NCBI GenBank assembly: GCA_018992685.1
Contig: JACVGT010000021.1
Coordinates: forward strand, 1 to 64,000
Length of the DNA stretch: 64,000 nucleotides
Direction: 5' to 3'
Source of the DNA: Theionarchaea archaeon
GTDB taxonomy: Archaea; Methanobacteriota_B; Thermococci; Methanofastidiosales; SZ-28-30
This document shows, in pieces, positions 1,399-47,372 of this stretch (the first letter of the stretch is position 1; each line of letters starts with the position of its first letter). A program made the translations under genes and the position numbers. Below the pieces are notes generated by a model that searched no databases, had not been told where the DNA came from, and saw only the letters and a list, made by a program, of their open reading frames with translations.

Positions 1399-1472
1399 TG
1401 GGCCCGTCGAGATTCGAACTCGAGACCTCCGCCTTGTCAAGGCGACGTCATAACCACCTAGACTACGGGCCC
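1399..1472 (-). tRNA. tRNA-Val (anticodon GAC)
   Basis: On the minus strand the 7-bp acceptor stem GGGCCCG pairs with CGGGCCC, with discriminator A. The anticodon arm is TCGCC-TTGACAA-GGCGG, so U33 precedes anticodon GAC, which reads valine GUC/GUU. The T arm is TCGAG-TTCGAAT-CTCGA. There is no intron and no encoded CCA. D arm TCTAGGTGGTTATGA is normal. The superficially Asp-like loop reads GAC, not GTC, so this is valine. Confidence 0.95.
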
Positions 1473-1593
1473 TACAACACCATGCGGATGTTCCTATTTA
1501 AGCTTTTGCCCTTTTCTGCGAATAGTAACAAGCAAGACAAACAAAAATCACTATCAGGATAGCACTTGCCCTAGGAGATAATTACTGAAGGAT

Positions 1594-1821
1594 TCAGGAC
1601 GCAATGAGAGTTGATGTCAGTTTTATGTTTTTCATTTTTCTCAGCCTCTGAGTGAGGAATGCGTCCAGGTCAGTGAGGCTTTCCACCTTGACTCTCAGTA
1701 TGATATCCCACTCTCCGTATAAAATGTCAGCGAATTCTACTTCTTTCATTCTCTCCAGTTCCTCTGCAACCACCTTTTCTTTCCCTATGGTGGTAGCAAC
1801 CAGGATATATGCTGTGATCAC
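1594..1821 (-). CDS. Stand-alone Lrp/AsnC ligand-binding (RAM) domain protein
   Basis: A 75-residue protein consisting only of the effector-binding alpha-beta domain of Lrp/AsnC regulators: ITAYILVATTIGKEKVVAEEL, then VEFADILYGEWDIILRVKV and a C-terminal LRKMKNIKLTSTLIAS. There is no helix-turn-helix, so it cannot bind DNA alone. Known stand-alone RAM proteins bind amino acids and may form mixed oligomers with full Lrp proteins; that role here is inference. The start is a GTG at 1821, with a TTTTTAAG box at about 1853-1861 upstream. Confidence 0.85.
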   Translation of the reverse strand: MITAYILVATTIGKEKVVAEELERMKEVEFADILYGEWDIILRVKVESLTDLDAFLTQRLRKMKNIKLTSTLIAS

Positions 1822-2147
1822 GCAACCACTGTTTCGTGCTCTTCATGTAAGACTTAAAAACCTTTCTGCTGATCGGATTCTGAGATCAAGAATGAGATTT
1901 CTTATGGCATCTTCACAACTTATCCACCGTGTACTGAATATATATCACCAAGATGATTATCATGCTAGAAATACGTACTGAGAGCAGAATAACAATCATT
2001 TTTTCCGTTCCTTGTCCGTATTCTATAATTAAAATGGAATCTAATTCATTTTTCAAGAAATTACAACAAAAAAGAAACTGCATGAGATATACACAACTTT
2101 TCAGAAGGTTTAAAAGCCCGAACATCAAGAGCTATGCAGGTGATCCT
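1822..2147. other. Divergent intergenic region, promoters only
   Basis: AT-rich spacer between the RAM-domain gene (leftward) and the VOC gene (rightward). Promoter-like boxes are TTTTTAAG (leftward, about 1853-1861) and GGTTTAAAAGCC (rightward, about 2106-2117). In-frame codons upstream of 2148 do not resemble a VOC N-terminus. No other feature is seen. Confidence 0.6.
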
Positions 2148-2504
2148 ATGATCCTTGATATTGACAATGTCTCCCACCCTGTCAAGAATCTGGAAAGAGC
2201 AGTGGTATTCTACAGGGATGTTCTGCAGCTTGACCTTCGGTTCATAGCGAAGGAGATGGGCTGGGCCGAATTCGATGTGGGAGGCTCCACTCTGGCATTG
2301 AGGGAAATAAAGTCTGGATTTGTTCCTTCTCAGTCATCGATTTGTTTTCTGGTGACTGAGATAGAAGAAGAAGTAGAACGGCTCAAGAAGGAAGAGACAC
2401 ATTTCTTAGGCGAGATTGAAGACATACCCGGTGGACAAGGGCGCGTTGTGGGATTCCTTGATGTTGATGGAAACAGACTCGATTTTTATGAACCACCTCA
2501 GTAG
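2148..2504 (+). CDS. VOC (glyoxalase/bleomycin resistance) superfamily protein
   Basis: A 118-residue single VOC domain: DIDNVSHPVKNLERAVVFYR at the N-terminus, LDLRFIAKEMGWAEFDVGGS in the middle, and GRVVGFLDVDGNRLDFYEPP at the C-terminus, the classic ending with the metal-ligand Glu in FYEP. The substrate is unknown; the family includes lyases, dioxygenases and epimerases. I chose the ATG at 2148 because AGGTGA sits 5 nt upstream and because the protein then begins exactly at the first VOC strand. The gene converges on the MFS gene with only 4 nt between them. Confidence 0.82.
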   Translation: MILDIDNVSHPVKNLERAVVFYRDVLQLDLRFIAKEMGWAEFDVGGSTLALREIKSGFVPSQSSICFLVTEIEEEVERLKKEETHFLGEIEDIPGGQGRVVGFLDVDGNRLDFYEPPQ

Positions 2505-2508
2505 ATGA

Positions 2509-3663
2509 CTATTCTTCTACAAATGCTACGAGGAGTGCTGCCACCGTTGATGTCGCCATGGCGAACATAAATGGTGCAGTCATTCCATACGTGTCCCAGA
2601 GCAATCCAGCAATCATGGAGGCAGCAAAAGCACATAGCCCCATGACCATCTGGTAGGCCCCCAGTATAGAAGCTTTTCTGGAAGGTGGAGCCAGCTCTGA
2701 CACCAGGGTTCTTTGTACTGGATCTAGGGCGCCTTTGTGCATGCCGTACAGGAAAAGCAAAGGTATGATGGCATATGCACTTTTCTGGGGATCAGTTCCC
2801 CCACAGACTGCAAATCCAGCACACAAAAGCCCGAATAGCGCAAATGCAATCATGAGTACGGTCTTTCTACTGGTTCTGTCTGCCATTTTTCCAAAGGGAT
2901 AGGAAAAGGCTGAAGCTGTTGCAGTGAAAATAAGATACAACACAGGGATGAATCCAGTAGAGTATCCTGAATCCCTTGCAAAGATCAACATGAAGGAATA
3001 GCTAAATGCACCTACAGCAAATATCGCAGAAAGAATGAAGAACAGCTTCAGGTTTGGCGTAAGATCTTTCAGGGAGAGACTGACATAGGCACTACCAGTT
3101 TTTCTTTCCTTAACTAGGTAGAGAATGAAAAACGCTCCCAGCAGGGATGGGAATGCTGCTACAAAAAACAGGGGCCTGTAGCCGATTTTCTGCACCACAG
3201 CAATGCACACCAGGATGCCACATACAGCTCCTAGATTGTCCAGGGTGCGCAAGAAGCCGAAGGCTGCTCCTCTTGTCTTTCTGGTGGACAAATCTGCCAG
3301 CATGGCGTCTCTGGGTGCTCCTCGTATCTTACCCAGCCGATCCATTATTCTGAAAGGCACCAGGTGATAGATAGAAATTGATGCAGCATACCCAATACGG
3401 GATACTGAAGCGAAAACATAGCCCAGCCAGATGAAGACTTTTCGCTTCTGGAGCCTATCAGAGAGGAATCCGCTGCCTGCCTGTGAAAAAGAGACTAGTG
3501 CCTCCCCCAGTCCATCCAGAAATCCAAGAAAGGTCATACTTCCTCCCAGGACAGAGGTAACAAAGAGGGGCCACACAGGATACACCATGTCTGATCCCAG
3601 GTCATTGAGAAAGGAAGCCAGCGCAAAAGCTTTTAGAGTCCTCCTGCTTCGGTTCTCATTCAT
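2509..3663 (-). CDS. Major facilitator superfamily transporter
   Basis: A 384-residue polytopic membrane protein with about 12 predicted helices. The MFS loop 2-3 signature appears as GFLSDRLQKRKVF (residues about 64-76), and a mirrored loop GKMADRTSRKTVL lies in the second half. The substrate cannot be read from sequence; MFS proteins with this N-terminal NDLGSDMVYPVWPLF pattern are usually annotated as drug or metabolite efflux pumps. The start ATG is at 3663 with a TTTATAAG box at about 3690 on the minus strand, so a near-leaderless transcript is likely. Not in an operon. Confidence 0.85.
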   Translation of the reverse strand: MNENRSRRTLKAFALASFLNDLGSDMVYPVWPLFVTSVLGGSMTFLGFLDGLGEALVSFSQAGSGFLSDRLQKRKVFIWLGYVFASVSRIGYAASISIYHLVPFRIMDRLGKIRGAPRDAMLADLSTRKTRGAAFGFLRTLDNLGAVCGILVCIAVVQKIGYRPLFFVAAFPSLLGAFFILYLVKERKTGSAYVSLSLKDLTPNLKLFFILSAIFAVGAFSYSFMLIFARDSGYSTGFIPVLYLIFTATASAFSYPFGKMADRTSRKTVLMIAFALFGLLCAGFAVCGGTDPQKSAYAIIPLLFLYGMHKGALDPVQRTLVSELAPPSRKASILGAYQMVMGLCAFAASMIAGLLWDTYGMTAPFMFAMATSTVAALLVAFVEE

Positions 3664-7241: not shown

Positions 7242-8189
7242 ATGGAAGAAGTCACTTTAAAAATTCAAAAAAGGGCGGTTAAAAGCCGTGGTAGGGCCAG
7301 GTTGAACAAATCAATGCTTTCAAGACTAGGCACAGAAGAAGAATCTAAACTGGAGATTATTAACAGTGCAGCTGATAGATCTGTGACGGTCACGTTGTTT
7401 GCTGATTCCATGGTTGAAGAGGGCTTTATTAGGCTGAGTGAAGAGGATCTGGAAGCTCTGGGACTCGATGAAGGAGATACTGTTGTTATCAGGAGAAAGG
7501 CACCCATTTCTGAACAGGTTAGAGATCGTGCCGAAGAAGCTGCAGAAAAGATCTCTGAAGGAATAGACAAGATTGGAGAGCGGGCCACAGAAACTGCAAG
7601 AAAAGTTGGTGAAGAGATTGATGAAGTGGAAGAATCAGTACGCGAAGGAATTGGTAAGGCACGGGTCAGCACCTCTCAAGCAGCAGATGTGGTAAAAGAA
7701 ACTGTTTCGAAGGCATACGGAAGGGTGGTTGTGGAGACAGCACCGGTGACGGGGCGGATTGAAACTGCAACCAAGGAAGCAGTGAGCAAGATCAAAGAAG
7801 GAGTCTCTCCCACAGCAGAAATGGCTGAAGCAAAAGCAAAAGAGGTCTATCAGAGAATCGTGGATGACCTGCCCTCTCTCAAAGATCGGTTGTCCAAAGC
7901 AGCAGAACCGGTGGTCAATCGGTTGAGGCCCGACCAAGGTACAAAGCTGCTGGAGGCCCTGAGGGGCGCTGAAGGTGTTATCCAGACAGCCACCATAAAG
8001 TCCGATGCTGTGGCTGATAAATTGATTAGAGAGCTTGAGCTTCCCGCAGATGTGGTGATTTCTGCAGTGCAGCGCAATCAGGAGATTGTCATTCCCAAAG
8101 GAGAAACGCGGCTTGTGAAGGGTGACATTGTTTACCTCGTTGGGAAAGAGGAACCAATCGCACAGAGCATCAGGATGATGGAGGGGTAG
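7242..8189 (+). CDS. CDC48-N-like barrel / long helix / TrkA-C domain protein
   Basis: A 315-residue protein of unusual architecture. Residues about 15-87 look like the double-psi barrel of VAT/CDC48 N-domains or AbrB-like proteins (ARLNKSMLSRLG ... LEALGLDEGDTVVIRRK). Residues about 90-225 are an Ala/Glu/Lys-rich amphipathic helix with LEA- or apolipoprotein-like character (AEEAAEKISEGIDKIGERAT). Residues about 232-315 form a TrkA-C (RCK_C) ligand-binding domain (EIVIPKGETRLVKGDIVYLV). No membrane segment and no NAD-binding RCK_N. I chose ATG 7242: a GTATTTAA box sits about 26 nt upstream. The upstream in-frame region is not protein-like. First gene of the coiled-coil cluster. Confidence 0.75.
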   Translation: MEEVTLKIQKRAVKSRGRARLNKSMLSRLGTEEESKLEIINSAADRSVTVTLFADSMVEEGFIRLSEEDLEALGLDEGDTVVIRRKAPISEQVRDRAEEAAEKISEGIDKIGERATETARKVGEEIDEVEESVREGIGKARVSTSQAADVVKETVSKAYGRVVVETAPVTGRIETATKEAVSKIKEGVSPTAEMAEAKAKEVYQRIVDDLPSLKDRLSKAAEPVVNRLRPDQGTKLLEALRGAEGVIQTATIKSDAVADKLIRELELPADVVISAVQRNQEIVIPKGETRLVKGDIVYLVGKEEPIAQSIRMMEG

Positions 8190-8190
8190 C

Positions 8191-8571
8191 ATGGATCTGG
8201 TGCTCACCTCTGATGAGCTCATCACTGTTGGCGTCATTCTCGTAGCCCTCATCTTCGTGTATTTAATAATACGGGAATTCCGGCTCATGAAAACTGATGC
8301 TCGAAAAATGGAAATAGAGCTTGACAGAGAGAAGTTGAAGCTTTTGCAGCAGGATGTGCTCTCCAAGGGTTACCCCTTCACCAGAATGACCTCAGAACAG
8401 TTGAACTACCTCAAGGAAATTGATGAGCAGAATTTTGTGCTGGAAACAGATATCTACGCTAGAGAGAAATCAGCAGAATCCCGATTGAAACGACTCGAAA
8501 ACTATGTTAAACTGGAGAAACTGGATCGATTGCTGGAAAGAATAAAGAAGGAAGAGAAGAAAATAAGGTGA
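8191..8571 (+). CDS. Membrane-anchored coiled-coil protein
   Basis: A 126-residue protein with one transmembrane helix (residues about 11-27, ITVGVILVALIFVYLII) and then an almost continuous charged helix to the C-terminus, broken near residue 60 by SKGYPFTRMT. It begins 1 nt after the stop of the TrkA-C gene, so the two are coupled. No family recognised. The coiled coil faces the cytoplasm if the positive-inside rule holds (REFRLMK after the helix). Confidence 0.7.
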   Translation: MDLVLTSDELITVGVILVALIFVYLIIREFRLMKTDARKMEIELDREKLKLLQQDVLSKGYPFTRMTSEQLNYLKEIDEQNFVLETDIYAREKSAESRLKRLENYVKLEKLDRLLERIKKEEKKIR

Positions 8572-8575
8572 ATCC

Positions 8576-8884
8576 ATGTATCCAACAACCACGAGAACGA
8601 GATTAGGAGATTCTCCTCATGTGAGGAGAATATACGGCCTCCCCTCATCACTTGGAGACAGAATACCCACTCTTGAGAGGACGCTTGATGCGTACTTTGA
8701 CATTCACTTTGAAGACATCATACATGAGTGGCAACTGTTGACAGACAATGACCTGCGTGATCTGGAATCGAGGCTTGACCACGTAACCAGGGAGATCACT
8801 GCGTTATACACACAGAAATCTGATCTGGAAAAGAGAGCTGATGCCTTGAGAAAGGAGCTCGAGAACCTGGAGGGATCACCATGA
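8576..8884 (+). CDS. Small coiled-coil protein with shared EW motif, copy 1
   Basis: A soluble 102-residue protein. Residues 37-54 read LDAYFDIHFEDIIHEWQL, which aligns without gaps with motifs in the next two genes; the consensus is D-x-Y-x-D-x-x-(F/M)-x-x-(I/L)-I-x-E-W-x-L. A coiled-coil helix follows (residues about 55-100). The stop overlaps the start of the next gene (ATGA). No known family; the motif plus coiled coil suggests a binding helix and an oligomerising stalk. Confidence 0.7.
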   Translation: MYPTTTRTRLGDSPHVRRIYGLPSSLGDRIPTLERTLDAYFDIHFEDIIHEWQLLTDNDLRDLESRLDHVTREITALYTQKSDLEKRADALRKELENLEGSP

Positions 8885-9105
8885 AAGTAATTGACGACTA
8901 TCTTGATGAATATCTGGATCGCAACATGGAATTCCTCATTGAAGAATGGGATCTGGCATCTACAAGGAATATTTCAAGCCTTTCTCGCCGAATACGAGAG
9001 CTTGAGGGCGGTGTGGATCCTGTGAAAGATTTTTGTGACCAGGCGTCCCGGAGACTCGGTGAGCTTGAAGCACGACTCAAAAAATTAAAGGAGGGTTCAC
9101 CATGA
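8881..9105 (+). CDS. Small coiled-coil protein with shared EW motif, copy 2
   Basis: A 74-residue protein, the shortest of the three paralogues: residues 8-25 are the motif LDEYLDRNMEFLIEEWDL, then a coiled coil. It overlaps the previous gene by 4 nt and the next by 4 nt (ATGA junctions), so all three should be made in step. It lacks the N-terminal extension of copy 1 and the membrane helix of copy 3. Function unknown. Confidence 0.7.
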   Translation: MKVIDDYLDEYLDRNMEFLIEEWDLASTRNISSLSRRIRELEGGVDPVKDFCDQASRRLGELEARLKKLKEGSP

Positions 9106-9464
9106 CAGTTGCTGAAGCCCTGCTCTTCCTCATTATACTGGGTATCATCCTCCTGGCGGCTTACTACTTTCTCAAGGGTTCGTCAGGAAGAGTGGAAATC
9201 ACCCGCCCCATTGAAAGTCGCATCGATGAGTACCTTGATCAGAGATTCGACTCCCTCATTTCTGAATGGAGGCTGGTCAGCCGGTCCAGAGTCAGGCGGT
9301 TTGAGAATGAGAAAGCCCCTCAACTTCACGAAGATGAATCACGCATGGCTGAGCTCAGGGCCTTTGAATCGCAGATGAAGGCCACCTTGGATAACCTGGA
9401 GGAACGACTTGATGTCCTTGAAAAGGAAATGGCCAAAGCGGGAAAGGGAAAATCCAAGAAATGA
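9102..9464 (+). CDS. Membrane-anchored coiled-coil protein with EW motif, copy 3
   Basis: A 120-residue protein: transmembrane helix at residues about 5-24 (EALLFLIILGIILLAAYYFL), the shared motif IDEYLDQRFDSLISEWRL at 41-58, and a C-terminal coiled coil ending in a Lys-rich tail. It would tether a hetero-oligomer of the three motif proteins to the membrane; that is inference. The 3' end overlaps the start of a zinc-ribbon gene. Confidence 0.7.
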   Translation: MTVAEALLFLIILGIILLAAYYFLKGSSGRVEITRPIESRIDEYLDQRFDSLISEWRLVSRSRVRRFENEKAPQLHEDESRMAELRAFESQMKATLDNLEERLDVLEKEMAKAGKGKSKK

Positions 9465-9711
9465 ACCTGATCTGTTTGCCCAGCTAAGAAGTGAGATCCA
9501 GGCAGTCAGGGAGCAGGGCGAACCTGCACAGAAAAATCCCTCAACCTTTTCCCAGTATCTCTGTGATCTGTGCAGTACATCTCACCCCATATCGGCCCTC
9601 AAGCAGTGTGCAGTGTGTGGCAGGTGGGCATGTCCAGATTGCTGGACTGATACATACTACGTATGTGATTCCTGTGGTGGGATAATTGCTATGAAGAGCA
9701 TAAAGCTTTAA
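9412..9711 (+). CDS. Small zinc-ribbon protein
   Basis: About 99 residues with a Cys-rich module at residues about 45-90: CDLC, then CAVCGRWACPDCW and CDSCGG, which can hold two zinc ions in a B-box/FYVE-like or double-ribbon arrangement. The N-terminal third is charged and likely unstructured. The start is uncertain: ATG 9412 overlaps the preceding gene by 53 nt, and later in-frame starts are lacking. Same strand and spacing as the coiled-coil cluster, so it may be part of the same complex. Confidence 0.6.
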   Translation: MSLKRKWPKRERENPRNEPDLFAQLRSEIQAVREQGEPAQKNPSTFSQYLCDLCSTSHPISALKQCAVCGRWACPDCWTDTYYVCDSCGGIIAMKSIKL

Positions 9712-22825: not shown

Positions 22826-23485
22826 ATGAATAAAGAAACTAATGAACAAAACAGAAACGAAAAGAATATAAGCCACCGCATTTTATCATGGTGCGGTGAG
22901 CAAAAGATGAAATTAATAATAATCGTTGCCATTCTAGGGATAGGGCTAGCAGGAATTGGACACTGGTATCAAGTCCAAGAGCAGTGCACAGATTTCACAT
23001 TGAACATAAGTTGGGATACAACAGAAAGTGGCCAAATCATAACTGATACTGACCCGGAGATTAAGATAGGTCATCTTCATGGCGCCAAATTAGTTATCAA
23101 CGTTGATACCCCAAGAGAAGGAACTCTTAAAGTTTCTGCCGATTCCCCAGATAAGGACATAGAAATCCGCATTGGGGAGAGTAGCAGCATAGAGAAATTG
23201 CCATGCACAGTACGAGAGCTGTATGTCTTGAAAGGGAAAAATCAAGAAGTCTCCACTTTACTAATCAATGCGCCCTTGAGACCTACCAAATATGGCATCA
23301 CTGTATGCGCCACTTTGAATGGCCAATGCCAAATTTGCAGGAATGCTTATATCACCGTAGTCAGTGAGAATGATCTTACACCAGCTCCAACTGAGACGGA
23401 AGAATCTGATGGTTCGTGCTTGGGTACGAGTTTCATTGCAATATTGGTAGTACTCTACACGGTAATTGGCAAAAAGAATAGATAA
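22826..23485 (+). CDS. Exported Cys-containing protein with two membrane anchors
   Basis: A 219-residue protein of unknown family. A cytoplasmic N-terminus of about 28 residues, one membrane helix (LIIIVAILGIGLAGIGHW), an extracytoplasmic beta-rich domain with five Cys, a short Thr/Glu/Pro linker (TPAPTETEESDG) and a C-terminal helix (TSFIAILVVLYTVIG). GGAGGTG lies 7 nt before the ATG. It opens the AT-richer accessory stretch, and its base composition differs from the operons to the left. Likely a horizontally acquired surface protein. Confidence 0.65.
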   Translation: MNKETNEQNRNEKNISHRILSWCGEQKMKLIIIVAILGIGLAGIGHWYQVQEQCTDFTLNISWDTTESGQIITDTDPEIKIGHLHGAKLVINVDTPREGTLKVSADSPDKDIEIRIGESSSIEKLPCTVRELYVLKGKNQEVSTLLINAPLRPTKYGITVCATLNGQCQICRNAYITVVSENDLTPAPTETEESDGSCLGTSFIAILVVLYTVIGKKNR

Positions 23486-23559
23486 TCTGGGCTTAAACAT
23501 GGAAAATAGAATCAACTTTCATTCTCTTTCTTTTTCTTTTTATCGTCTCACCAATCCAT

Positions 23560-23703
23560 CTAACAGAGTTTGCGTTCCACTAATCCTCTGTAGACCATGC
23601 TCACGTATTCACCTTTCCCGATGATAACATGGTCTAGAATCGTGATTCCAAGATAATCACATGTTGGCAAACGTTTGCTTACGTAAACTAGAAATCCCCA
23701 ACC
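23560..23703 (-). pseudogene. RadC-family (JAB/MPN) C-terminal remnant
   Basis: On the minus strand about 45 codons read ...RLPTCDYLGITILDHVIIGK, then GEYVSMVYRGLVERKLC and stop. This matches the last 25-30 residues of RadC proteins, which end ...LGI-x-LLDHIIIG-x-YVS. The catalytic His/Asp part is absent, so only the 3' end of a former gene survives. RadC genes are common on mobile elements, which supports an acquired, decayed origin for this stretch. Confidence 0.7.
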
Positions 23704-23759
23704 TCCAAAAAAACATAACTTTTTAAAAACTACTTTGGATTATTAGGCGAGGTGAAAAG

Positions 23760-23948
23760 ATGAATAAGAATATACTTGCTATAGTGTTTGCCGCCCTCAT
23801 CTTATTGGGGGGAGTTTCAGATCTATTGGCTGAAACACCAAATAACCCCACTGAGAATAGTTGCGGAATAGTCGTGTCACTTGCATCACTCCTAGATTAT
23901 CCACTCACTCTTTTGGGTATCGGGAATGGTGGGGGAAATCCTGGATAG
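23760..23948 (+). CDS. Signal-peptide microprotein
   Basis: A 62-residue protein with a clear signal peptide (NILAIVFAALILLGGVSDLL-AE) and a mature part of about 36 residues ending LTLLGIGNGGGNPG, with one Cys and a hydrophobic stretch. AGGTG precedes the ATG, and a TTTTTAAAAAC box lies about 40 nt upstream. It could be a secreted peptide or a bacteriocin- or signal-like product. Its 3' end overlaps the convergent regulator gene by 44 nt. Confidence 0.55.
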   Translation: MNKNILAIVFAALILLGGVSDLLAETPNNPTENSCGIVVSLASLLDYPLTLLGIGNGGGNPG

Positions 23949-24882
23949 TCCATTTCTTGGTCCAGTTGGAAATTGGAACAGAATACTTATACTCCTCTAC
24001 AAACCCAGAAGTACTCATGAGGTTGAGAAAGTCAAAAAAGACATTTTGCAGGAAGTTCCGTTCTAACAAGATGTAGGCATAAATCCACCTATCAACTTTA
24101 AGGATGGAACAGTGCACAGGCATTTTCTTCAGCATATCCACTAGCTGTCCCTCATAATTCGTTTTAAACAATATAAAATAACCATTGTAATTCATGTATC
24201 CACGTGGATAATACGGTACCCATGCTGTACATTTATCCATGACATTATGAAGGTGGTCATAGAATACTGATTTAGAAAGACCAAAGCAGCGAATAATCTC
24301 AATATATTTCATTCTCAAGTTATTTTTCAATAACCTGAACAAAGAGAGGTCCTGCTCATCCCATATTAATTCATTTCTAACTGGGAACGTCAATTCTGAC
24401 CTGATGAACTCCCCTGTATCTAAGAAATCTTGGAACTTTGTGTAGTACTCATCCATAGACCTTCTTTCTACTTTGTTGTATATGAAATCGCTTCGAGGTC
24501 CACTCAAAACAAACCCATCAAATCCCTTTTCCATGGAGAAATCAATCTTCTCACGAGACATCACCATGAGGTCGAATGCGCCAGAGCAATGTGCTGCATA
24601 GACAATGCGTGGGTTCTCAGTCATTTTCATGAAGAGTAATTGTGCATCCTTAACCCTCATGAAGTATGTGTACTCCTGATAATTAAGGAATATATTCAAT
24701 CTGAGAAATGGTGGAGACATCACTCCTTCAGCTAAAGCCCACCTGTAAAGCTTTGCAGCACTCTTATCATTGATACTAAGGTTTCTTCCGATTTTAGAGA
24801 AATTCTGCCTCGCATCATTCAATAACAGGAGATACAAAGAGTGGTAATAGTCTTCTATTTGTACTCTCGACCACTTCGGCAT
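23905..24882 (-). CDS. Large Lrp-like protein with two helix-turn-helix regions
   Basis: A 325-residue protein with an apparent duplication. Each half has a winged-helix (DARQNFSKIGRNLSINDKSA; LRMKYIEIIRCFGLSKSVFY) followed by an alpha/beta segment, as in tandem Lrp/AsnC-type archaeal regulators. No catalytic motifs. It converges on the signal-peptide microprotein and may control it or the nearby peptide genes; this is inference. Aromatic-rich, AT-rich codon use unlike neighbouring operons. Confidence 0.55.
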   Translation of the reverse strand: MPKWSRVQIEDYYHSLYLLLLNDARQNFSKIGRNLSINDKSAAKLYRWALAEGVMSPPFLRLNIFLNYQEYTYFMRVKDAQLLFMKMTENPRIVYAAHCSGAFDLMVMSREKIDFSMEKGFDGFVLSGPRSDFIYNKVERRSMDEYYTKFQDFLDTGEFIRSELTFPVRNELIWDEQDLSLFRLLKNNLRMKYIEIIRCFGLSKSVFYDHLHNVMDKCTAWVPYYPRGYMNYNGYFILFKTNYEGQLVDMLKKMPVHCSILKVDRWIYAYILLERNFLQNVFFDFLNLMSTSGFVEEYKYSVPISNWTKKWTIQDFPHHSRYPKE

Positions 24883-24989
24883 GTTAAATCACCGTAACTG
24901 TTATCTAGCTCTCGCTTATAAACCTATCTGTCGTGGAGATTTCAAGCCTCAACCAATGAAAATCCGAAACAAAAATAGGAGGTAGAAAT

Positions 24990-25121
24990 ATGGGTGAATC
25001 AATCATGCCGGATGACTCGGAAAAGAAGAAAACCAGTGAAAGAGAGGATAACAACCCAGAAAAGGAAGAAAAGAAGAAAAAAGGAAGGACATATCCACGC
25101 ATCGGAGAAATCCCTGGATAA
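24990..25121 (+). CDS. 43-residue highly charged peptide
   Basis: An ATG at 24990 lies 5 nt after AGGAGGTA, a near-perfect Shine-Dalgarno site. The product begins MGESIMPDDSEKKKTSERED and is a charged, low-complexity helix, then ends with the distinct tail GRTYPRIGEIPG. A strong hairpin terminator follows 72 nt after the stop, so the gene, its ribosome site and its terminator make a complete unit. No known family. Confidence 0.55.
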   Translation: MGESIMPDDSEKKKTSEREDNNPEKEEKKKKGRTYPRIGEIPG

Positions 25122-25192
25122 TTACCTTCTCACATAGTACCGCAAGAATCGAATCGGACAGAGGCCGAAAGGACTTTTACCGAGTGGGACAG

Positions 25193-25250
25193 CAGAGAGC
25201 CTGTAAACACTTCTAGTCTTTCACCCCCCTCAGGCTCTCTGTTCTTTTTA
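25193..25250 (+). terminator. Perfect 11-bp hairpin with T tract
   Basis: CAGAGAGCCTG (25193-25203) is the exact reverse complement of CAGGCTCTCTG (25231-25241); TTCTTTTT follows. This is the strongest intrinsic-type terminator in the window and closes the 43-residue peptide unit. A role as an RNA structure is also possible because the loop is 27 nt. Confidence 0.7.
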
Positions 25251-25732
25251 ATAGAAATGGTCATATGGGAATTAACCTCTAGTTTTCCCATGAGAGATGA
25301 GAGAGATAGTCTAGCATCTGTTGGGATATGCGATTTATTTCATTTCTTCATTGGCAGCTTTCAGTACCATTATCTTCTGAATAACATTACTATATAAACG
25401 AAATCTGTCGGAGCACAGGAAAAGTAATATTAAATGGAATATAGTAAATGATGAATCTATAGAATTTTCTCATTTCGCATATTGTGTTAATATTGATTAG
25501 AGGAACTATAGAAAGCATTGTTTTATGGAAATTCATGTAGATAAGGTGTTGAATTGTTCAAATAGAATATCTGTTCATAATACTAATATTGATAATGTAA
25601 TCTGTTGAATTGATAGATTATAAGAATATTCATGATTCTGTACATTATCTCTTTTGGTAGAAAATGATTTTCCTTTAATAATTTCTATGCGATAGAACAA
25701 GAGTTTATATAGTATAACTTCAAAAGAGTAAT
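25251..25732. other. AT-rich gene-free region
   Basis: About 480 nt, strongly AT-rich, with many short runs such as GAATATT and TAATATT and no frame longer than a few dozen codons. The right end holds GTTTATATAG at about 25702-25711, the likely TATA box of the zinc-ribbon gene. No repeat array or tRNA-like element seen. Confidence 0.6.
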
Positions 25733-25951
25733 ATGGTTAAAACAGTAGAAACCGCAACTAGGAAATACATCAGAGGATTACTCTGTGCGCCTTTCGTTCC
25801 ATGCCCCGTATGTAACAAGAAAACTAGGGCAATGTATACAAATACTTGCCAGTGGTGCAATGTTAAATGGAATGAAGAGCAATTGGAGGAAAGGGAAAGA
25901 CTCAGAAATGAGCAAATTGAAATATCTCGGAAGATGGGATTGTTAGAATAA
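25733..25951 (+). CDS. Small zinc-ribbon protein
   Basis: A 72-residue protein with CPVCNKK (residues about 24-30) and CQWCNVKW (about 39-46), a CxxC-CxxC zinc ribbon, then a charged C-terminal helix (NEEQLEERERLRNEQIEISR). The transcript should be leaderless given the TTTATATAG box about 25 nt upstream. Such ribbons bind nucleic acid or proteins. No specific family; part of the accessory stretch. Confidence 0.6.
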   Translation: MVKTVETATRKYIRGLLCAPFVPCPVCNKKTRAMYTNTCQWCNVKWNEEQLEERERLRNEQIEISRKMGLLE

Positions 25952-26114
25952 GTAAGACTCTTCCCATCTCAGAGGTTCCAAGAGTCAATATTCTACATAT
26001 TCATATTTAATTTATCTTTGCGAATTTCGCAATTAGTGTGCAGTAATTTTCTACATTCGGAGTTACTGATTCTCCATCCCTGATTGCAGTCGAGAGTCAA
26101 TTCCGGCTCGAGAG

Positions 26115-27212
26115 CTATCTCAGCCCTAGGAACGCCTTCAGGAACTCAATAAATCGATCCCACAGCCCTTTTTCTTCGGGGAGGTTTAATCTCTCCTTCA
26201 CGACTTCAAGAACAGTAATGGTGAATGATGTTTCCTGGTAGCGCTGTCTGTTGAAATCGTCAACAAACCCCATCTTCATGGTAAAATAATGTTCTCCTGG
26301 TACAGAAGATGTCACATCTGACTCAAACGTGTCAAAGTCACCCGCTTCCAGACTACCAATGTAATAGGAGGTGTACTCCCAATCCATGTCACTCATGACT
26401 TCCAGGTAAATTCCATTGACAGCGAATCGCCCTCCATTTGCCACGTCCACAGAAAACGTGAAAGTCTGTCCTTGATCCAGTTCCCGAGGGTAGCTGATGT
26501 TCAGCAATTTGAGCAGCAGTTTTCTCCTGATAGAAATACTCACTGTCTCCTGAGTTGTATGAGATGTTATTGAAGGGTCCTGATAGGAAATTGTCAATTC
26601 CAGATCATACACCCCTGAAGGAGCCTCTCCGGAAACAGCATACCTTTGGTTCACTGATACAGCTCGTCCAACGTCCACTCGGTTGAAATATGCTGAGCTT
26701 GAGGGCTGTATGGGAGAGAAAAACTCAGTTGAGGCAAAGAAAATGGTGACATTTAAGGCATCTCCCGTTCCTTCATTTTCTATCACGAGAAGGAGCTCGA
26801 ACTGTTCTCCCGGACCCACGTCATCCGGCTGAATCGTGAATCTCGTGACATGCAGCTCAGGCAATGGCTGCTGGTATTCCATGACCACGGCAAACGTAGT
26901 ATCTTCTTCCAGTTCGACAAGCTCACTGTGGGGTGAAAACCCTGCTTTCACCACAGTAACATAGTACGTCCTATAAGCTTTCAACGTAAAGGACGCAGTC
27001 CCCTGGACTGTGAACTGATCTGGGATGGATGCATCTTCTGGTCTGGGATATTGGTAGGAGACAGACACGCGCACATTATCAAGAGGGTTGCCGTACACAT
27101 CATGTACAGCAACAGTCAGGACAGCATACGTCTCTGATGTGACCTGAACCATGCTGACACCAGCACCTGCGAGAACGAGCACGAGCAGAATACCTATCCC
27201 CAATTGCTTCAC
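26115..27212 (-). CDS. Secreted protein with regulatory-like and CARDB-like domains
   Basis: A 365-residue exported protein: signal peptide (LGIGILLVLVLAGAGVSMVQ), a CarboxypepD_reg-like sandwich (LTVAVHDVYGNPLDNVRVSV), then two CARDB/NPCBM-like Ig folds (ELHVTRFTIQPDDVGPGEQF; KLLNISYPRELDQGQTFTFS). The C-terminus ends FIEFLKAFLGLR without a clear anchor. It overlaps the ABC ATPase gene by 4 nt and is the last gene of the PadR-led operon, so it may act as the extracellular part of an export system or as its cargo. Confidence 0.75.
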   Translation of the reverse strand: MKQLGIGILLVLVLAGAGVSMVQVTSETYAVLTVAVHDVYGNPLDNVRVSVSYQYPRPEDASIPDQFTVQGTASFTLKAYRTYYVTVVKAGFSPHSELVELEEDTTFAVVMEYQQPLPELHVTRFTIQPDDVGPGEQFELLLVIENEGTGDALNVTIFFASTEFFSPIQPSSSAYFNRVDVGRAVSVNQRYAVSGEAPSGVYDLELTISYQDPSITSHTTQETVSISIRRKLLLKLLNISYPRELDQGQTFTFSVDVANGGRFAVNGIYLEVMSDMDWEYTSYYIGSLEAGDFDTFESDVTSSVPGEHYFTMKMGFVDDFNRQRYQETSFTITVLEVVKERLNLPEEKGLWDRFIEFLKAFLGLR

Positions 27213-40559: not shown

Positions 40560-40766
40560 TGTTAATAACCTGATGATGAAATGAATATATCTTGGAAAAT
40601 TTCCTAGAAAGGTGGTATTTCTGTGATCTGAAGACACGTTTGACATTTCAAGTGGTATTCGATATGCAACACTCGCCATATACCAAGTTTGTTTTCGCGT
40701 AAATACGGAATGGATATTTTCAGCAAAGTATTTATATACAGCTTTCTAAGAGAGGCAGGGAATCCA

Positions 40767-41504
40767 ATGAACACATACATCGTGTCCTTGTTGAGCAGAA
40801 ATGGAAAGAAGGCTGTCGAATCGCTCAATTCCAATCTCAATTCAAAAGATCTGTTTTCTAAGATGCCTTCCACCATGAGCTTCGACGTAAAGTTCGATGC
40901 GGATGATGGCTACATTTTTGTTCTATCGGATGAGAAAGTGCCACTTAGCTTTTTCTACCTGAAAGAAGAACGATTCTACGACTTGAATACAGTGAATATA
41001 TTAAATTTAGATAGAATGAACTTTATGCTGAGTTTCGTAAAGGGAATTGGAATTTTGAGGCGTGGTGATCCCCTCAAGTACATTTCATCAGAAATAAATC
41101 CATTAATTGGTAGCTCTCTATTCAACGATCCAAGTATTCTTGAAATAAGGCAATTCAGCGACAAGGAGATGCAGTGGCAAACCTGGAAAGGAGATTTGGT
41201 GAGCATTACTCTCGAATTGCCCGATGCCAAGGTTATCTCAGTAAGAGGAAGAGAAATAGAATCAAAAATAGAGGAATTAGAGCTTTATCCGAATAATAAC
41301 AACAAGATAGCAGAAATCAGGATCCATAATGCGGATTTCAATAGATATATCACGATAAGAAGAAACGGAAAAATGAGGATTGCGCTATGGCCAGGTGAAA
41401 TCAAAATGGAAGATCTGAACGAAAAAACGTTATTCTCTCGATTCTCGAAAAGAATGATTAATCTTTATGAATACGTGCAACAGGCTGTGGGTGAGGAGCT
41501 GTGA
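40767..41504 (+). CDS. Unknown protein A of the HD/PRTase island
   Basis: A 245-residue soluble protein of unknown fold: an N-terminal MNTYIVSLLSRNGKKAVESL, mixed alpha/beta middle, and beta-rich C-terminal half. No catalytic motif, signal or membrane helix. TTTATATA at about 40731-40738 lies about 26-30 nt upstream of the ATG, giving the operon promoter. Its stop overlaps the start of the winged-helix gene (GTGA), so it belongs to the same system. Codon use is AT-rich compared with the metabolic operons. Function unknown. Confidence 0.6.
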   Translation: MNTYIVSLLSRNGKKAVESLNSNLNSKDLFSKMPSTMSFDVKFDADDGYIFVLSDEKVPLSFFYLKEERFYDLNTVNILNLDRMNFMLSFVKGIGILRRGDPLKYISSEINPLIGSSLFNDPSILEIRQFSDKEMQWQTWKGDLVSITLELPDAKVISVRGREIESKIEELELYPNNNNKIAEIRIHNADFNRYITIRRNGKMRIALWPGEIKMEDLNEKTLFSRFSKRMINLYEYVQQAVGEEL

Positions 41505-42670
41505 TAGATTTCTATGAGCTGAGCTTCTTGATTCCATTGATACTTCTACACGCGAGAGAAAACTCGATAAGGGGAGGTTTGGGTCGTTTCCAGATTGCAA
41601 AGATCTCGGCGTGGCTTCTTGTGAATTCAGGAATTTGTTCACTTCAAGAAAGAGTTTTCATATATAAGTTCGGCCCATATATCTCCGGATTTGAGAATGC
41701 ACTAGCTGATTTGATAAGACGCAACATAATTGAAATCATAATTGATAGTGAGGGGCAAACAAGATTCTGTATCACGGAGGATGGAAAAAGATGGATAATG
41801 TCTCGTCTCAGGGATCAAGATTCTAGTGGGAGTGAGGTCAAAGCAGCAGAAATCGATCGAATACTATTCACTCCGCTTTCTGACCTGATAGTGGATCTTG
41901 TAGAAAAGTCTCCTTTCTTCAAACCAATTAAATATGTTATTGGGGATAAAGAACTGATTAGGATATTCGATTGGACTAATTTCGGAGATGGCAGAATTCA
42001 TTCATATCATTATACACTCTTGCGCTCATTTTACCGATTGGAGGATTACTTCGACAGAGAGCGTTATGAAGCCGAAACGAAAATGACTGAGAATGATACA
42101 GACTATCAATTGAGGATAATAGACAATTCCGCCATACCAAATACTATGCACTTGGAAGATCTCATCCAAAATTGCAAAGAAAAACATACAATACGCTACA
42201 TTTTCAACAAGGAGAATCCTAGGAGTGTTGCAGAAGACAAGTTTGAGGGGAAGAATTACATTGGACATCTCTGGTATGTGTATAGTGCTATTGACATCAT
42301 TCACACACTGGCCGGATTAGCTCCGACTATAGATGAGATTGCTAGAGTTTGTCTTACAAATTATGAATATTCCATAAAAAAAAGACATGATTATTCCAAG
42401 AGAAGGAAAATGAGAGAAGGGGCTATCCGCTCTGACATGCAGAAATTGGTTAAATATGGTATCCTGAATAGAGGGAAAGTAAATAGGATGTTCATCTACA
42501 GTATTAGAGCAAGAAGAATAGTTGACAGCTATACCTCACAGACCTACTCACTGTTGAATCCTGAGAAGATACGAAATCTATATGAAGAAGTAATTAGACC
42601 TTCCCCCGCAAATGCCGAAATAATCAAGCAGATAATTGCGGAAGGAACGGAAGCGGCAATGGAGGTTTGA
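41501..42670 (+). CDS. Unknown protein B: YwgA/SocA-like winged helices
   Basis: A 389-residue protein with a winged helix at about residues 1-105: RFQIAKISAWLLVNSGICSL, YKFGPYISGFENALADLIRR, RFCITEDGKRWIM. The KFGPY...L...L pattern resembles YwgA/DUF4065 (SocA antitoxin-like) modules of toxin-antitoxin and phage-defence loci. A second winged-helix-like segment (AIRSDMQKLVKYGILNRGKV) lies near residue 305-325. GTG start at 41501 overlaps the previous stop by 4 nt. It may be a sensor or adaptor; the family comparison is from memory. Confidence 0.55.
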   Translation: MIDFYELSFLIPLILLHARENSIRGGLGRFQIAKISAWLLVNSGICSLQERVFIYKFGPYISGFENALADLIRRNIIEIIIDSEGQTRFCITEDGKRWIMSRLRDQDSSGSEVKAAEIDRILFTPLSDLIVDLVEKSPFFKPIKYVIGDKELIRIFDWTNFGDGRIHSYHYTLLRSFYRLEDYFDRERYEAETKMTENDTDYQLRIIDNSAIPNTMHLEDLIQNCKEKHTIRYIFNKENPRSVAEDKFEGKNYIGHLWYVYSAIDIIHTLAGLAPTIDEIARVCLTNYEYSIKKRHDYSKRRKMREGAIRSDMQKLVKYGILNRGKVNRMFIYSIRARRIVDSYTSQTYSLLNPEKIRNLYEEVIRPSPANAEIIKQIIAEGTEAAMEV

Positions 42671-42674
42671 TTAG

Positions 42675-44393
42675 ATGAATGAAGAACTTGACGAGTTGTT
42701 GAAATGCTTCTCTCGAAAACGTGTGATAAATTATTATCGAAGAGAGAGGGAAGCACAAGAATCAACCGACGGAGAATCACTGGAGGATATTCAACAAACG
42801 GCAGAAGAAGTGGACATGAAACTCCTCGATGATTTCTTACATTTCATGCAAACTAGAAATATTAACAAACTTGATGATAGTCTCTCAAAAAGAATTGAAG
42901 AATTCAGAAATTTTCTCACAAGAATCGAAGAAGAAATAAAAATAGAAGTCTCTTCAGCTACTCCTGAACAGAACGAGTACTACCAAGAGCTTATTCGAAT
43001 GCTTGAGAAACAGAGGCATTCAGTGGAACTCGTGAAGCAGACTTTTGGATCCTTGGAACCATTTGAATTATCAGGAGCCCTTCTAGACTACTTCGAAATG
43101 CTCAAGGAATTTCAAGAAGCAAGCTTTAAATATCAGCAAAACTACAGAGATCATTTGATTCATTCTCTGCGGGTTTTCCTCTTGATTATCTCGATTCTCA
43201 ATGCAATGGGTGATATTTGGATTTGTATTCTGAGAAGATTCCTTTGTAAGAATCTGCGAAATCTGGGCATAAGGATTAGTAAGAAGCAGTTTGCTGAAGT
43301 TCTCAATCCGGAAGAACTCTGGGATTGTTCAATACAAGGAGTTTCAATAATGTCTTTTTTCCATGATATCGGGATGGTCTATTCCAGATATAGGGAAATG
43401 GTGGATGGCTTGGAAGAAAGGATTTTTGCGGATAGATCTCGCACCGGCATGGAGGGAGACAGATCGATATTTACCTATAAGCCAATTCTTCGCTTGAAAC
43501 ATGAAGCTGTAGGGGAAATAAAAGGAAGAATATCCATTTTCAGTGAAGCACTGGGAAAAATGCATCCAGAATACGAAGAACTTACTACAATCTTAAATCA
43601 CGTGTTCGGGAGCATTGAGAATTCCGAGAAAGAAACTGAAGAAGCGGAAAGTGAGTCTCCTGCGTCCAATGACAAGAAACTCCACGGAGTTTATGCTTTG
43701 CTGAATATTTATACCTATCAAGTCATAGAGAGGCGTTTTCTAGATAGTATTAGAGATCTCGAAAGAGAATCTAAGGAAGTAGAGAGATATAGAAGCTCTG
43801 CTTTCAGAGCATATAGGTCAAATCTAGAATCTGGGGCTAAGATTCCTCCGGATACCCTGCTTGACAACGAATCAAGGGGAAACATAAATAAACAGAAGGA
43901 AATCCTTCGGACGCTAATTCTTTGCGAGGTGTTCAATTGTATTCTGATCCATGATATGGATGGATTTCCATACATGTCTCCGCTTAGTGAGCTATTGATT
44001 TTTGCTGACAACGCTCAAGAATGGAATCGGATTGCATTCGAAGGAGGGTGCAAAAAGCAATATGAAAAAGATCAGATAGAAATCTGCATCAACAAGTGTG
44101 AAAAGGCATGTTTGTTAATTCTAGACTTCTATGAAAAGAAGATGTTTGAAGGATCAGAATCTCTGAATACGCTAATGGATATGTGTACGAAAAGATACAG
44201 TTGTGAGATTGAAGCAGGCGTGTTTGGTATCTTCTATCGCATAAAGGCTAGTGATTACGAAACAAGACGTCCTTCCCAGGCAGTCTTTGTTTGTCCACAT
44301 CTGGAGGTGGGCAAAGGAAGAATTCCACTAGAGGACACAGGAGACATCAGCCTAGACATGTTTTGTCAATATTGTCAATACACTGATAGGTGA
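42675..44393 (+). CDS. Unknown protein C: HD-domain phosphohydrolase-like
   Basis: A 572-residue protein with a large HD-type core. Candidate metal ligands are H163 (RDHLIHSLRVF), H230-D231 (SFFHDIGMVYS), H337 (KLHGVYALL), H426 (ILIHDMDGF) and D445 (LLIFADNAQEW), which follow the H-HD-H-D order of HD phosphohydrolases. An N-terminal coiled coil (about 70-120) precedes it; a Cys-rich tail (VCPHLEV ... CQYCQY) may bind zinc. HD domains hydrolyse nucleotides or cyclic nucleotides. GGAGGT precedes the ATG. Full catalytic status is untested. Confidence 0.65.
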   Translation: MNEELDELLKCFSRKRVINYYRREREAQESTDGESLEDIQQTAEEVDMKLLDDFLHFMQTRNINKLDDSLSKRIEEFRNFLTRIEEEIKIEVSSATPEQNEYYQELIRMLEKQRHSVELVKQTFGSLEPFELSGALLDYFEMLKEFQEASFKYQQNYRDHLIHSLRVFLLIISILNAMGDIWICILRRFLCKNLRNLGIRISKKQFAEVLNPEELWDCSIQGVSIMSFFHDIGMVYSRYREMVDGLEERIFADRSRTGMEGDRSIFTYKPILRLKHEAVGEIKGRISIFSEALGKMHPEYEELTTILNHVFGSIENSEKETEEAESESPASNDKKLHGVYALLNIYTYQVIERRFLDSIRDLERESKEVERYRSSAFRAYRSNLESGAKIPPDTLLDNESRGNINKQKEILRTLILCEVFNCILIHDMDGFPYMSPLSELLIFADNAQEWNRIAFEGGCKKQYEKDQIEICINKCEKACLLILDFYEKKMFEGSESLNTLMDMCTKRYSCEIEAGVFGIFYRIKASDYETRRPSQAVFVCPHLEVGKGRIPLEDTGDISLDMFCQYCQYTDR

Positions 44394-44397
44394 TTCT

Positions 44398-45606
44398 GTG
44401 ACAATGGAATTGAGAAGACCAAGTAAGATCCAGGAAAAAATCAATGAGGTCGAAAATGACTTGGCGTGTCTATTCTCTGAGATTGCAGAAAAAGAGAATC
44501 TCGACTTCGCGGAAATCGCCCTAATACCTTTGCCGAGAAGGGGGGCCGGTTTGCTGCCCGATATAAAGAGAATCGATGGCGAAAGAAGTAGCCTCATTAG
44601 CATCCTTGAAGAGTTCGGGTATCTTGAGGAATACCCTTTGTTCCCTCTATTTGAAAGGATTTCGGACTTCAGAATGATACTCATTTTTGATGACCTTTGT
44701 AGAAGAGGAACTCATTTTGCCGAATATGGAGAATATCTGCAGGAGCTTGATAAGATATTCGGGTTTATGAACGAGAAACGTATAGTCCTGGCGACTTATC
44801 TATTACACAAGAATAGATGGAATAGAGAAAAAAATCTCAAACAGGGAATTTACGCAAAAAAAATTCTCGATAAGGAGCCTTTTGATCGAGAAGTGTCAAA
44901 TATATTTTTGACAATAGCATGCAGAGGGGAAATCATCGATGCAGATCATGAACTTATTGAAGCTGAATTTTCAGAAAAGCAGGAGTTCTTTACACTGTGG
45001 AAGGAACTCGAAAAGATTGCAAAGGAGAATCACTGCGAACTTGTAGAAGACGGTATCGATTTTCTTCATCCAAAAAGAAAGAAACTGAGTTTTTTTGTTA
45101 GTGGTGATGAGGCATCGCTGGAGAAAAAAGAGGTTTTGGAAGAACATATGGATCTCAGATTTCCCAAGTTTATTGAAGGAATCAAAATTGCCAAATTTAG
45201 AATGGTTTTCGAGCTTGAATTGTCCGAAGATTGCAAAGGAGTCTTTACCACAAGACTTGAAGCAGTTCCAATTCTTAATCCGATTATTGACAACACTAAG
45301 TTCTCTCCCGAGCTTTGCCGTAAATATTGGAAACCCTACTGCGGGTTCTGTAAAGAAGGCGTAATCTCCGAGGAAGAGTGTAAGAAAAAACAGAAGCCAA
45401 GAATAGATTTCCTGAGGAAGTACTACCATAACCCTGGGTACGACTGCATGATTTGTAATCTTGTGGAGCCTTTTTCGAATCATTTCTGCAAAGAAATCGG
45501 AGACTTGTTTAAAGAGAGTGTTCTCAGGGGCGGGATAACCTTCAAGAGTAGATGGCTTCACCGTGACAGATTATTCGAATTCTGGAGAAAGCTGAAAGCT
45601 CCATAG
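44398..45606 (+). CDS. Unknown protein D: phosphoribosyltransferase-like
   Basis: A 402-residue protein whose first ~130 residues look like a type I phosphoribosyltransferase: EIALIPLPRRGAG, then the PRPP loop RMILIFDDLCRRGTHFAEYG (residues about 92-111), where DD-x-C-RRGTH matches the DDx-x-TGxT signature with R-G-T. The C-terminal half is unknown, with Cys pairs (CGFC, CMIC) that could hold zinc. GTG start at 44398 has AGGTGA 4 nt upstream; an ATG at 44404 is an alternative. It would use PRPP or a nucleotide, complementing the HD protein. Confidence 0.6.
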   Translation: MTMELRRPSKIQEKINEVENDLACLFSEIAEKENLDFAEIALIPLPRRGAGLLPDIKRIDGERSSLISILEEFGYLEEYPLFPLFERISDFRMILIFDDLCRRGTHFAEYGEYLQELDKIFGFMNEKRIVLATYLLHKNRWNREKNLKQGIYAKKILDKEPFDREVSNIFLTIACRGEIIDADHELIEAEFSEKQEFFTLWKELEKIAKENHCELVEDGIDFLHPKRKKLSFFVSGDEASLEKKEVLEEHMDLRFPKFIEGIKIAKFRMVFELELSEDCKGVFTTRLEAVPILNPIIDNTKFSPELCRKYWKPYCGFCKEGVISEEECKKKQKPRIDFLRKYYHNPGYDCMICNLVEPFSNHFCKEIGDLFKESVLRGGITFKSRWLHRDRLFEFWRKLKAP

Positions 45607-45691
45607 CTTCGTGGATGGAAATGTAGAAACTCATTTCTTTTGGGCGTTGTTGAAGTTCTGTCGGTTTTGAGACAAGTAGAATTCCATAGTG

Positions 45692-46141
45692 CTAGCTTGA
45701 ATTGTCTAGACTATCAAAGAGTCTCACATTTTCTTGAGTATCCCCAGCTCTATAATTCAAATACACTTTCCCAAGGAATTTAGAAGCTTCACTTCTATTG
45801 TGAAATTCCCGGAAGAATTTCCCTTTCTTCTCGACCCATTTGGGCTTGACAAATCCGAAATCCAGCGAAATATCCAAAGCACGACCTATTCTTATTTCAT
45901 CTAATGTAAACCCATCAAAGTATTTGTCAAAATGCCTTTTGAATTTCTCGAATCTTCCTCTCAGACGATTGGTTACCATTAGGAAAGAGAACGTCTCGAA
46001 TTGAAGTGTTTCCAAGACTAAATAGAAAGATCTGCCTAATATGGATAGCCCGATTTCCTGATATGGTTTAAGGCTCTTCTCCACAACGATACATGGGAGT
46101 ACCTCCTCACTCCTTTGATCTATACGCTTCACTTTGACCAC
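45692..46141 (-). CDS. Small hypothetical protein E, opposing the island
   Basis: A 149-residue protein, rich in Lys, Phe and Arg, with segments FYLVLETLQFETFSFLMVTN and GKFFREFHNRSEASKFLGKV. No membrane helix, no motif. GTG start is tentative. It converges on the PRTase-like gene (86 nt apart), and could be an accessory or an antitoxin-like element. Family not recognised. Confidence 0.45.
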   Translation of the reverse strand: MVKVKRIDQRSEEVLPCIVVEKSLKPYQEIGLSILGRSFYLVLETLQFETFSFLMVTNRLRGRFEKFKRHFDKYFDGFTLDEIRIGRALDISLDFGFVKPKWVEKKGKFFREFHNRSEASKFLGKVYLNYRAGDTQENVRLFDSLDNSS

Positions 46142-46706: not shown

Positions 46707-46891
46707 GAGCGTTCTGTTAAAGGATATTAGAACACATTTCTATGAAGGCGGTGGATGTGCAAGACGTCCTTGCATAGATCTGCTGCACCTGGACAGCTAG
46801 TTGTTGATTTCGTGAAAGGGTTCCATATTTCTTCAAGTGTGAAGTCAGTATTAATTTCGTAATGAAAGGGAAATATGTCATGAAATTGTGA

Positions 46892-47197
46892 ATGGTCAGA
46901 AATGCCCATGATTCAGACATGGAAAAAGAAGAATCCGAGATATCAAATAAAGAAGTAGTTGAGATCATCAGATTACAAGTCTTTGACCCATCTACCAATG
47001 AAATAAAGAAGCTTTTCAAGGAGAAATATAACCTCTCTTAGAATACGGGGAACCTGTTTAGGAAAGGCGTTCTAGACAAAGCACTAAGACTGGCCAAACA
47101 TCATGCTGGCCACATAGCCAAGAAGAAAAACAAGGATGGGTATATAAAGTTATTTAATAAGAAATATGAAAGTATCACATTTTACAACATTTTTTAG
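46892..47197 (+). pseudogene. Unknown small gene interrupted by an in-frame TAG
   Basis: A frame from ATG 46892 gives 49 codons (…EISNKEVVEIIRLQVFDPST…) and meets TAG at 47039-47041; the same frame then stays open for 51 more codons (…FRKGVLDKALRLAKHHAGHI…) until TAG at 47195. Both halves have protein-like, basic composition. It is most simply a nonsense-mutated gene; family unknown. Confidence 0.3.
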
Positions 47198-47298
47198 CCT
47201 TTAAAGCCTTCTATAAGCGATCAGAGCTTTCTAGGAAAACTCCATGGCATTAAAATACATAAAAAAAAGGGAAAAAGGCTCAAAAACCTAAATCTGAG

Positions 47299-47372
47299 AG
47301 CCCCGGGAGGGATTTGAACCCTCGACCAACTGATTACAAGTCAGTCGCTCTACCGAGCTGAGCCACCGAGGC
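47299..47372 (-). tRNA. tRNA-Thr (anticodon TGT)
   Basis: Minus strand: acceptor stem GCCTCGG pairs with CCGGGGC, including one G-T wobble, discriminator T. The anticodon arm ACTGA-CTTGTAA-TCAGT gives TGT, which reads Thr ACA. The T arm is GAGGG-TTCAAAT-CCCTC. No intron, no encoded CCA. Its 3' end faces the decayed region and the HD/PRTase island, so it could be an attachment site; I find no clear second copy of its 3' end. Confidence 0.95.

Follow-up and report, generated by a model that had tools for sequence, protein, structure and literature searches.

A four-gene operon with a predicted HD-superfamily enzyme beside a tRNA-Thr gene in a Theionarchaea archaeon: a candidate conflict cassette

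Here, we describe four adjacent genes, designated A to D, within the first 64,000 nucleotides (nt) of contig JACVGT010000021.1 of a Theionarchaea archaeon (assembly GCA_018992685.1, 3.03 Mb in 45 contigs; this whole stretch is called the window). We propose, with a probability of about 0.42, that they are a horizontally acquired conflict cassette, probably antiviral, carried by a mobile island beside a tRNA gene. The first-pass annotation of this DNA had treated the interval 40767-46141 as a candidate nucleotide system uniting an HD hydrolase with a phosphoribosyltransferase (PRTase), and our analysis bears on both halves of that suggestion.

The operon and its tRNA-side surroundings

The features of the locus, with their open reading frames (ORFs) and protein lengths in amino acids (aa), are as follows.

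40728-40738, plus strand: candidate TATA box of archaeal type (TATTTATATAC), about 30 nt before the ATG of A, read by eye from the sequence
40767-41504, plus strand: gene A, 245 aa, no recognisable domain (from the ORF)
41501-42670, plus strand: gene B, 389 aa, GTG start, winged-helix-like stretch in the C-terminal part, sub-threshold (from the ORF)
42675-44393, plus strand: gene C, 572 aa, predicted HD phosphohydrolase (from the ORF and its relatives)
44398-45606, plus strand: gene D, 402 aa, GTG start, possible PRTase-like N-terminus, Cys-rich C-terminus (from the ORF)
45692-46141, minus strand: 149-aa ORF, convergent to the operon, no family match
46800-47322, no strand: decayed DNA adjoining tRNA-Thr, parts of it repeated next to further tRNA genes of this genome
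47298-47372, minus strand: tRNA-Thr (TGT), bounding the AT-rich patch
Elsewhere in the genome, repeat copies of the decayed DNA: contigs C27:70817-74233 (L056), C1:8428-11276 (L057) and C5:32047-32257 (L049)
Further repeat copies: contigs C3:119102-119205 (L053) and C11:29726-29882 (L054)

Genes A to D form a genuine and intact four-gene operon with good coding signals. The four ORFs, of 245, 389, 572 and 402 aa in the ORF listing, are collinear on the plus strand, and the tight spacing first described was confirmed, with a 4-nt overlap between A and B and gaps of 4 nt each between B and C and between C and D. They are not chance frames, since open frames reached at most 230 codons when 300 first-order Markov sequences of matching composition were generated. 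Sequences resembling Shine-Dalgarno sites precede B (GGTGAGGAG), C (GGAGG) and D (GGTGA). The element TTTATATA ahead of A is plausibly an archaeal TATA box, and the box at 40728-40738 would probably be the operon promoter. As the first reading had it, the genes are AT-rich and unlike their neighbours, having a G+C (GC) content of 38-40% compared with 44-50% in the flanking genes. The interval originally drawn holds as an operon only to 45606, the remainder being the separate 149-aa ORF on the opposite strand. This ORF could be a further gene of the island. An archaeal-type peptidyl-tRNA hydrolase (PTH2) is also encoded in the window.

The earlier association with a tRNA and decayed sequence was borne out by the tRNA-Thr gene and by the DNA next to it, pieces of which were found elsewhere in the genome at 70-83% identity. 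Several of these copies directly adjoin genes for tRNA-Thr(CGT), tRNA-Cys, tRNA-Glu and tRNA-Asp, that is, four other tRNA loci; such repetition beside several tRNA genes suggests that a family of elements exploits tRNA loci and has decayed at this one. Longer copies on two other contigs encode a protein of 664-669 aa together with a small helix-turn-helix protein, and no recognised integrase was found in the fuller copies. The repeated DNA is thus a possible unnamed, tRNA-linked mobile element. At the operon itself, atypical composition, a tRNA border, mobile remnants and absence from relatives are all present, as expected of an island, but without an attachment repeat or an adjoining known defence gene. 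We looked for an attachment-type repeat of tRNA-Thr and found none, and in the only other species of the genus the tRNA-Thr contig stops at the tRNA. Scans with protein family libraries recognised no structural, replication or integrase gene between 40.4 and 47.3 kb, and among Rfam RNA families only the tRNA was found. Overall, the decayed DNA common to other tRNA loci supports a mobile-island setting.

Direct searches for relatives of the four proteins, with tblastn or with peptide patterns, covered 115 genomes of the phylum as well as collections of plasmids, phages, IMG/VR and GTDB contigs, although not each protein was run against all of them. They found none; matches in Halopiger, a Pantoea phage and Vibrio (E 5-9) were taken as chance. 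By protein search, B, C and D had no relatives in the other 114 phylum genomes, the same-genus species included, in a sample of 115 genomes (one per species) that belongs to one class and consists mostly of a family of ~2-Mb genomes.

Gene C and its two remote relatives

The protein encoded by C carries the motifs Y157RDHLIH163SLRV, FFH230D231IG, LH337G, ILIH426D and FAD445NAQEWNR. Two remote relatives, reached by way of a DNA pattern, share them. The pattern, D..QEWG(R), came from a known HD family ending in D..QEWGR and served as a lead in viral contigs, where it marked 26 stretches; one of these, L093 (viral contig IMGVR_UViG_3300031862_000585, HD gene at 8018-9667), encodes the whole motif set in a 550-aa protein. 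A search with the L093 protein then returned, at E=0.3, the second relative, P0001 (WP_122140362.1), from a Parabacteroides distasonis plasmid (NZ_OY725812) and annotated only as hypothetical. A consensus of the QEW-type HD family found nothing in plasmids, and its match to C in the archaeon's own genome was circular and was not counted.

The relationship between C and these proteins was assessed in several ways. BLASTP aligned C with P0001 in two segments (pairwise E=3e-7 and 3e-5), and a profile built from P0001 and L093 with C left out retrieved C at E=2.4e-6 from 2,271 background frames and shuffled sequences to which C had been added, the next unrelated sequence scoring 0.25. A profile-profile comparison aligned residues 114-240 of C with P0001 plus L093 (E=1.8e-4). 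Besides C, P0001 and L093, six background frames have the motif skeleton, the same number as there are frames of P0001, L093 and their duplicates in the set. The ordered metal ligands named in the first-pass annotation (H163, H230-D231, H337, H426 and D445) are present in C and conserved in both relatives, as H134/H181-D182/H298/H347/D368 in P0001 and as H259/H307-D308/H400/H436/D457 in L093. P0001 resembles C in the identical order and similar spacing of YRDH..H..RV, HD.G, HG and H followed by D..QEW.R, and in belonging to a small operon in a mobile-element setting, whereas its partners are not A, B or D; L093 has all five motifs and differs from C in its N-terminal region and its neighbours. 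At the C terminus of C, C540PH and C564QYC567, which are probably a zinc site, have no counterpart in either relative. Judged by these comparisons, C belongs to the HD superfamily and retains each of the five metal-ligand motifs, and its family is fast-evolving, has no Pfam model and is carried elsewhere by mobile or defence-type loci.

Could C instead belong to a conflict family that is already named? The conflict-associated HD and PRTase families mentioned in the first-pass annotation may have been Pfam HD-CE (PF24391) and PRTase-CE (PF24390), and HD-CE is indeed the best Pfam match of C (E=1.4e-3). The score, however, is 18.8 bits against a cut-off of 27 (19.8 bits for the C core alone), the aligned residues 227-325 omit H337, H426 and D445, P0001 and L093 themselves have no HD-CE match, and D has no match to PRTase-CE. 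Membership in these two families is therefore very unlikely and largely refuted, and the assignments of C to HD-CE and of D to PRTase-CE were rejected. H276 and H309, which the weak HD-CE alignment suggested as third and fourth ligands, were likewise set aside, H337 and H426 being the residues that are conserved in the relatives. Although both are of the HD superfamily, the fifth-ligand motif reads LADEID in HD-CE proteins, for example the L002 protein of the same phylum, and FADNAQEW in C, and the partners are unlike. The L002 locus (964-3476; G078:C19) encodes a true HD-CE protein (77 bits) and, directly after it, an uncharacterised protein longer than 325 aa, and adjoins what appears by eye to be an RNA-methyltransferase-like gene.

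P0001 is encoded at the end of an operon whose other products are PDC-M50A, a ThsB-like TIR protein, Nmad2, an HMUDK_hel protein and a radical SAM protein, the last matching viperin best in PADLOC, and this operon lies near a site-specific (tyrosine-type) integrase. From its gene content, the setting of P0001 is defence-type and mobile. As an observation in its own right, the Parabacteroides operon (L097 1517-6675, NZ_OY725812; L098 4408-9564), with its PDC-M50A, ThsB-like TIR, Nmad2, HMUDK_hel, radical SAM/SPASM and HD genes, is a candidate defence operon larger than the PDC-M50 pair of PADLOC.

The L093 contig has a terminase, and its HD gene follows genes for an ABC-GNAT protein, a methyltransferase and a class-V aminotransferase; the cargo block between terminase and HD gene (L093 3214-9670) comprises an ABC ATPase-GNAT fusion, a ribbon-helix-helix protein, the methyltransferase and the class-V aminotransferase. 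An HD relative on a terminase-bearing contig, like the decayed element DNA adjoining the tRNA, is what one would expect if A to D were cargo of an integrated and since decayed virus or plasmid, the HD protein and its partners serving the replication, nucleotide supply or counter-defence of that element. We consider this unlikely, given that no structural, replication or integrase gene was recognised in the 40.4-47.3 kb region, that the attachment repeat was not found and that the operon stands intact amid decayed surroundings.

Genes A, B and D

Searches with hidden Markov models, which the first-pass annotation had proposed for each protein, placed none of A to D in a family above threshold. 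A had no significant match in Pfam, NCBIfam, PHROGs or PADLOC. The C-terminal part of B gave sub-threshold winged-helix matches, to CopY (E=0.0036) and Penicillinase_R (E=0.037). The YwgA/SocA-like start claimed for B found no library support: its N-terminal KFGPYISGF looks like the YwgA pattern on visual inspection alone, and no match to Panacea/SocA (DUF4065) or YwgA models was obtained in Pfam (whole protein and N-terminus alone) or NCBIfam (whole protein).

These features of B bear on a further explanation, namely that the operon is a toxin-antitoxin or addiction module of the mobile element, in which C or D would be the toxin, B (winged-helix, possibly Panacea/YwgA-like) the antitoxin and autorepressor, and the whole would persist by stabilising the island. 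The compact operon does adjoin tRNA-linked mobile remnants, the weak winged-helix matches fall in B, and Panacea domains are established as hyperpromiscuous antitoxins (PMC8832971). A set of four genes with sizeable products nevertheless exceeds the usual pair, and B, lacking a Panacea/DUF4065 match, has KFGPY where Panacea has its GPV signature, so that an addiction module seems an unlikely, though not negligible, explanation.

The second half of the original proposal was that D is a PRTase. D carries PLPRRG at residue 44 and IFDDLCRRGTHF at residues 96-107, the latter having been read as a loop for phosphoribosyl pyrophosphate (PRPP). Its hydrophobic strand, acidic pair and one glycine fit the PRPP loop hhhhDDhhxTGxT and its T/S positions do not, which leaves about three deviations from the usual signature. 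The best matches of D in the PDB were two uracil phosphoribosyltransferases (UPRTs; 6wn8 and 2ehj), at E 0.18 and 0.76; the weak match covers D 31-105, with the P-R-G strand-loop (residues 44-49) in register. The P-R-G and D-D loops thus stand in the same order as in UPRT, whereas the loop of D is degenerate, the better match reaches only E=0.18 and D does not rise above shuffled sequence: when compared with a profile of 30 archaeal UPRTs, or with eight further PRTase-like proteins from these genomes, D scored no higher than 3,000 shuffled versions of its own sequence. For D, nothing significant came from Pfam, NCBIfam, PRTase-CE or PHROGs, and a PRTase-CE search of the archaeon's own genome did not return it. 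The stretch originally claimed as a PRPP loop is thus present but degenerate and not confirmed as such a loop, and D has no significant similarity to any PRTase. In its C-terminal 100 residues D has six cysteines (C307, C315, C318, C328, C350 and C353), partly as CxxC pairs, and this tail is probably metal-binding.

The conserved co-occurrence that the first-pass annotation proposed to check was not seen either: no PRTase lies near P0001 or L093 (0/2), so that in the two HD relatives, the only cases at hand, the HD/PRTase pairing is not conserved. The "HD plus PRTase nucleotide system" is therefore only partly supported: the HD enzyme with full ligands and a relative in a defence-type operon is supported, while D as a PRTase and the co-occurrence found no support in the sequence tests.

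HD phosphohydrolases and PRTases are both common in nucleotide salvage, and the weak UPRT-like order of motifs in D would suit an acquired accessory metabolic operon, for nucleotide salvage, clean-up or the breakdown of modified nucleosides, uninvolved in conflict. Enzymes of salvage tend to be conserved, however, and these proteins are orphans in the 115 phylum genomes; moreover, the closest HD relative adjoins ThsB-like TIR and PDC-M50A genes. Hence we regard a purely metabolic operon as quite improbable.

A comparison can also be drawn with the effector pair of Type III retrons, a PRTase and a winged-helix protein (PMC12548924). PRTase-like and winged-helix partners are likewise proposed here, whereas the operon proteins and the 149-aa ORF have no reverse transcriptase match, Rfam gives no RNA except the tRNA, and an HD enzyme is present.

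A possible role in virus-host conflict

We favour the conflict cassette because of the operon spacing, coding signals, promoter, AT-rich patch, tRNA and tRNA-linked decayed DNA, because B, C and D are absent from the other 114 phylum genomes, and because of the HD homology and ligands of C, the operon of P0001 with PDC-M50A and ThsB-like TIR genes near an integrase, and the terminase on the L093 contig. For the C operon, a role in conflict between virus and host is plausible but unproven.

Several points weigh against the cassette. The HD relatives found are only two, and the one encoded on the viral contig could benefit the virus instead of its host. Relatives of A, B and D were found nowhere in the collections searched, so that co-inheritance of the four genes is a supposition. 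Known defence genes are absent from the operon, and no convincing PADLOC match was obtained for A to D. D may be a very diverged PRTase, which is unproven. Single-sequence AlphaFold2 models of C and D reached predicted local distance difference test (pLDDT) values of 39 and 36, respectively, and were discarded as unusable.

In light of C being a predicted HD enzyme, how might such a cassette work? C would be the effector or a processing enzyme, a metal-dependent phosphohydrolase acting on a nucleotide, which could be a free nucleoside triphosphate (NTP or dNTP), a nucleotide signal or a nucleic-acid end. D might make or consume the substrate of C, or recognise the target through its Cys-rich tail, while B would repress the operon or keep the complex inactive and A would serve as sensor or inhibitor. 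Upon infection C would be released, the nucleotide pool would be depleted or altered, and growth of the virus or of the cell would stop. A more specific version, in which a zinc-bearing HD phosphohydrolase, a highly diverged partner of PRTase fold and a double winged-helix switch make up a novel antiviral type using a nucleotide or ribosyl-phosphate signal unlike those of known systems, is speculative and rather unlikely.

The HD family defined here (YR.H..H / HD / HG / H / D..QEW.R), which has neither its own Pfam model nor a PADLOC match to its core nor an informative annotation, has members in an archaeal island, a phage-like genome and a bacterial operon that also holds TIR-type and candidate-defence genes. 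Were it a family of nucleotide-directed effectors, proteins now called hypothetical would gain names and tests, and archaea would offer a case of nucleotide-based immunity. Elsewhere in the window, two ORFs of 219 aa and 325 aa, without Pfam match, lie in a second AT-rich patch (35-41% GC) at 22826-26115.

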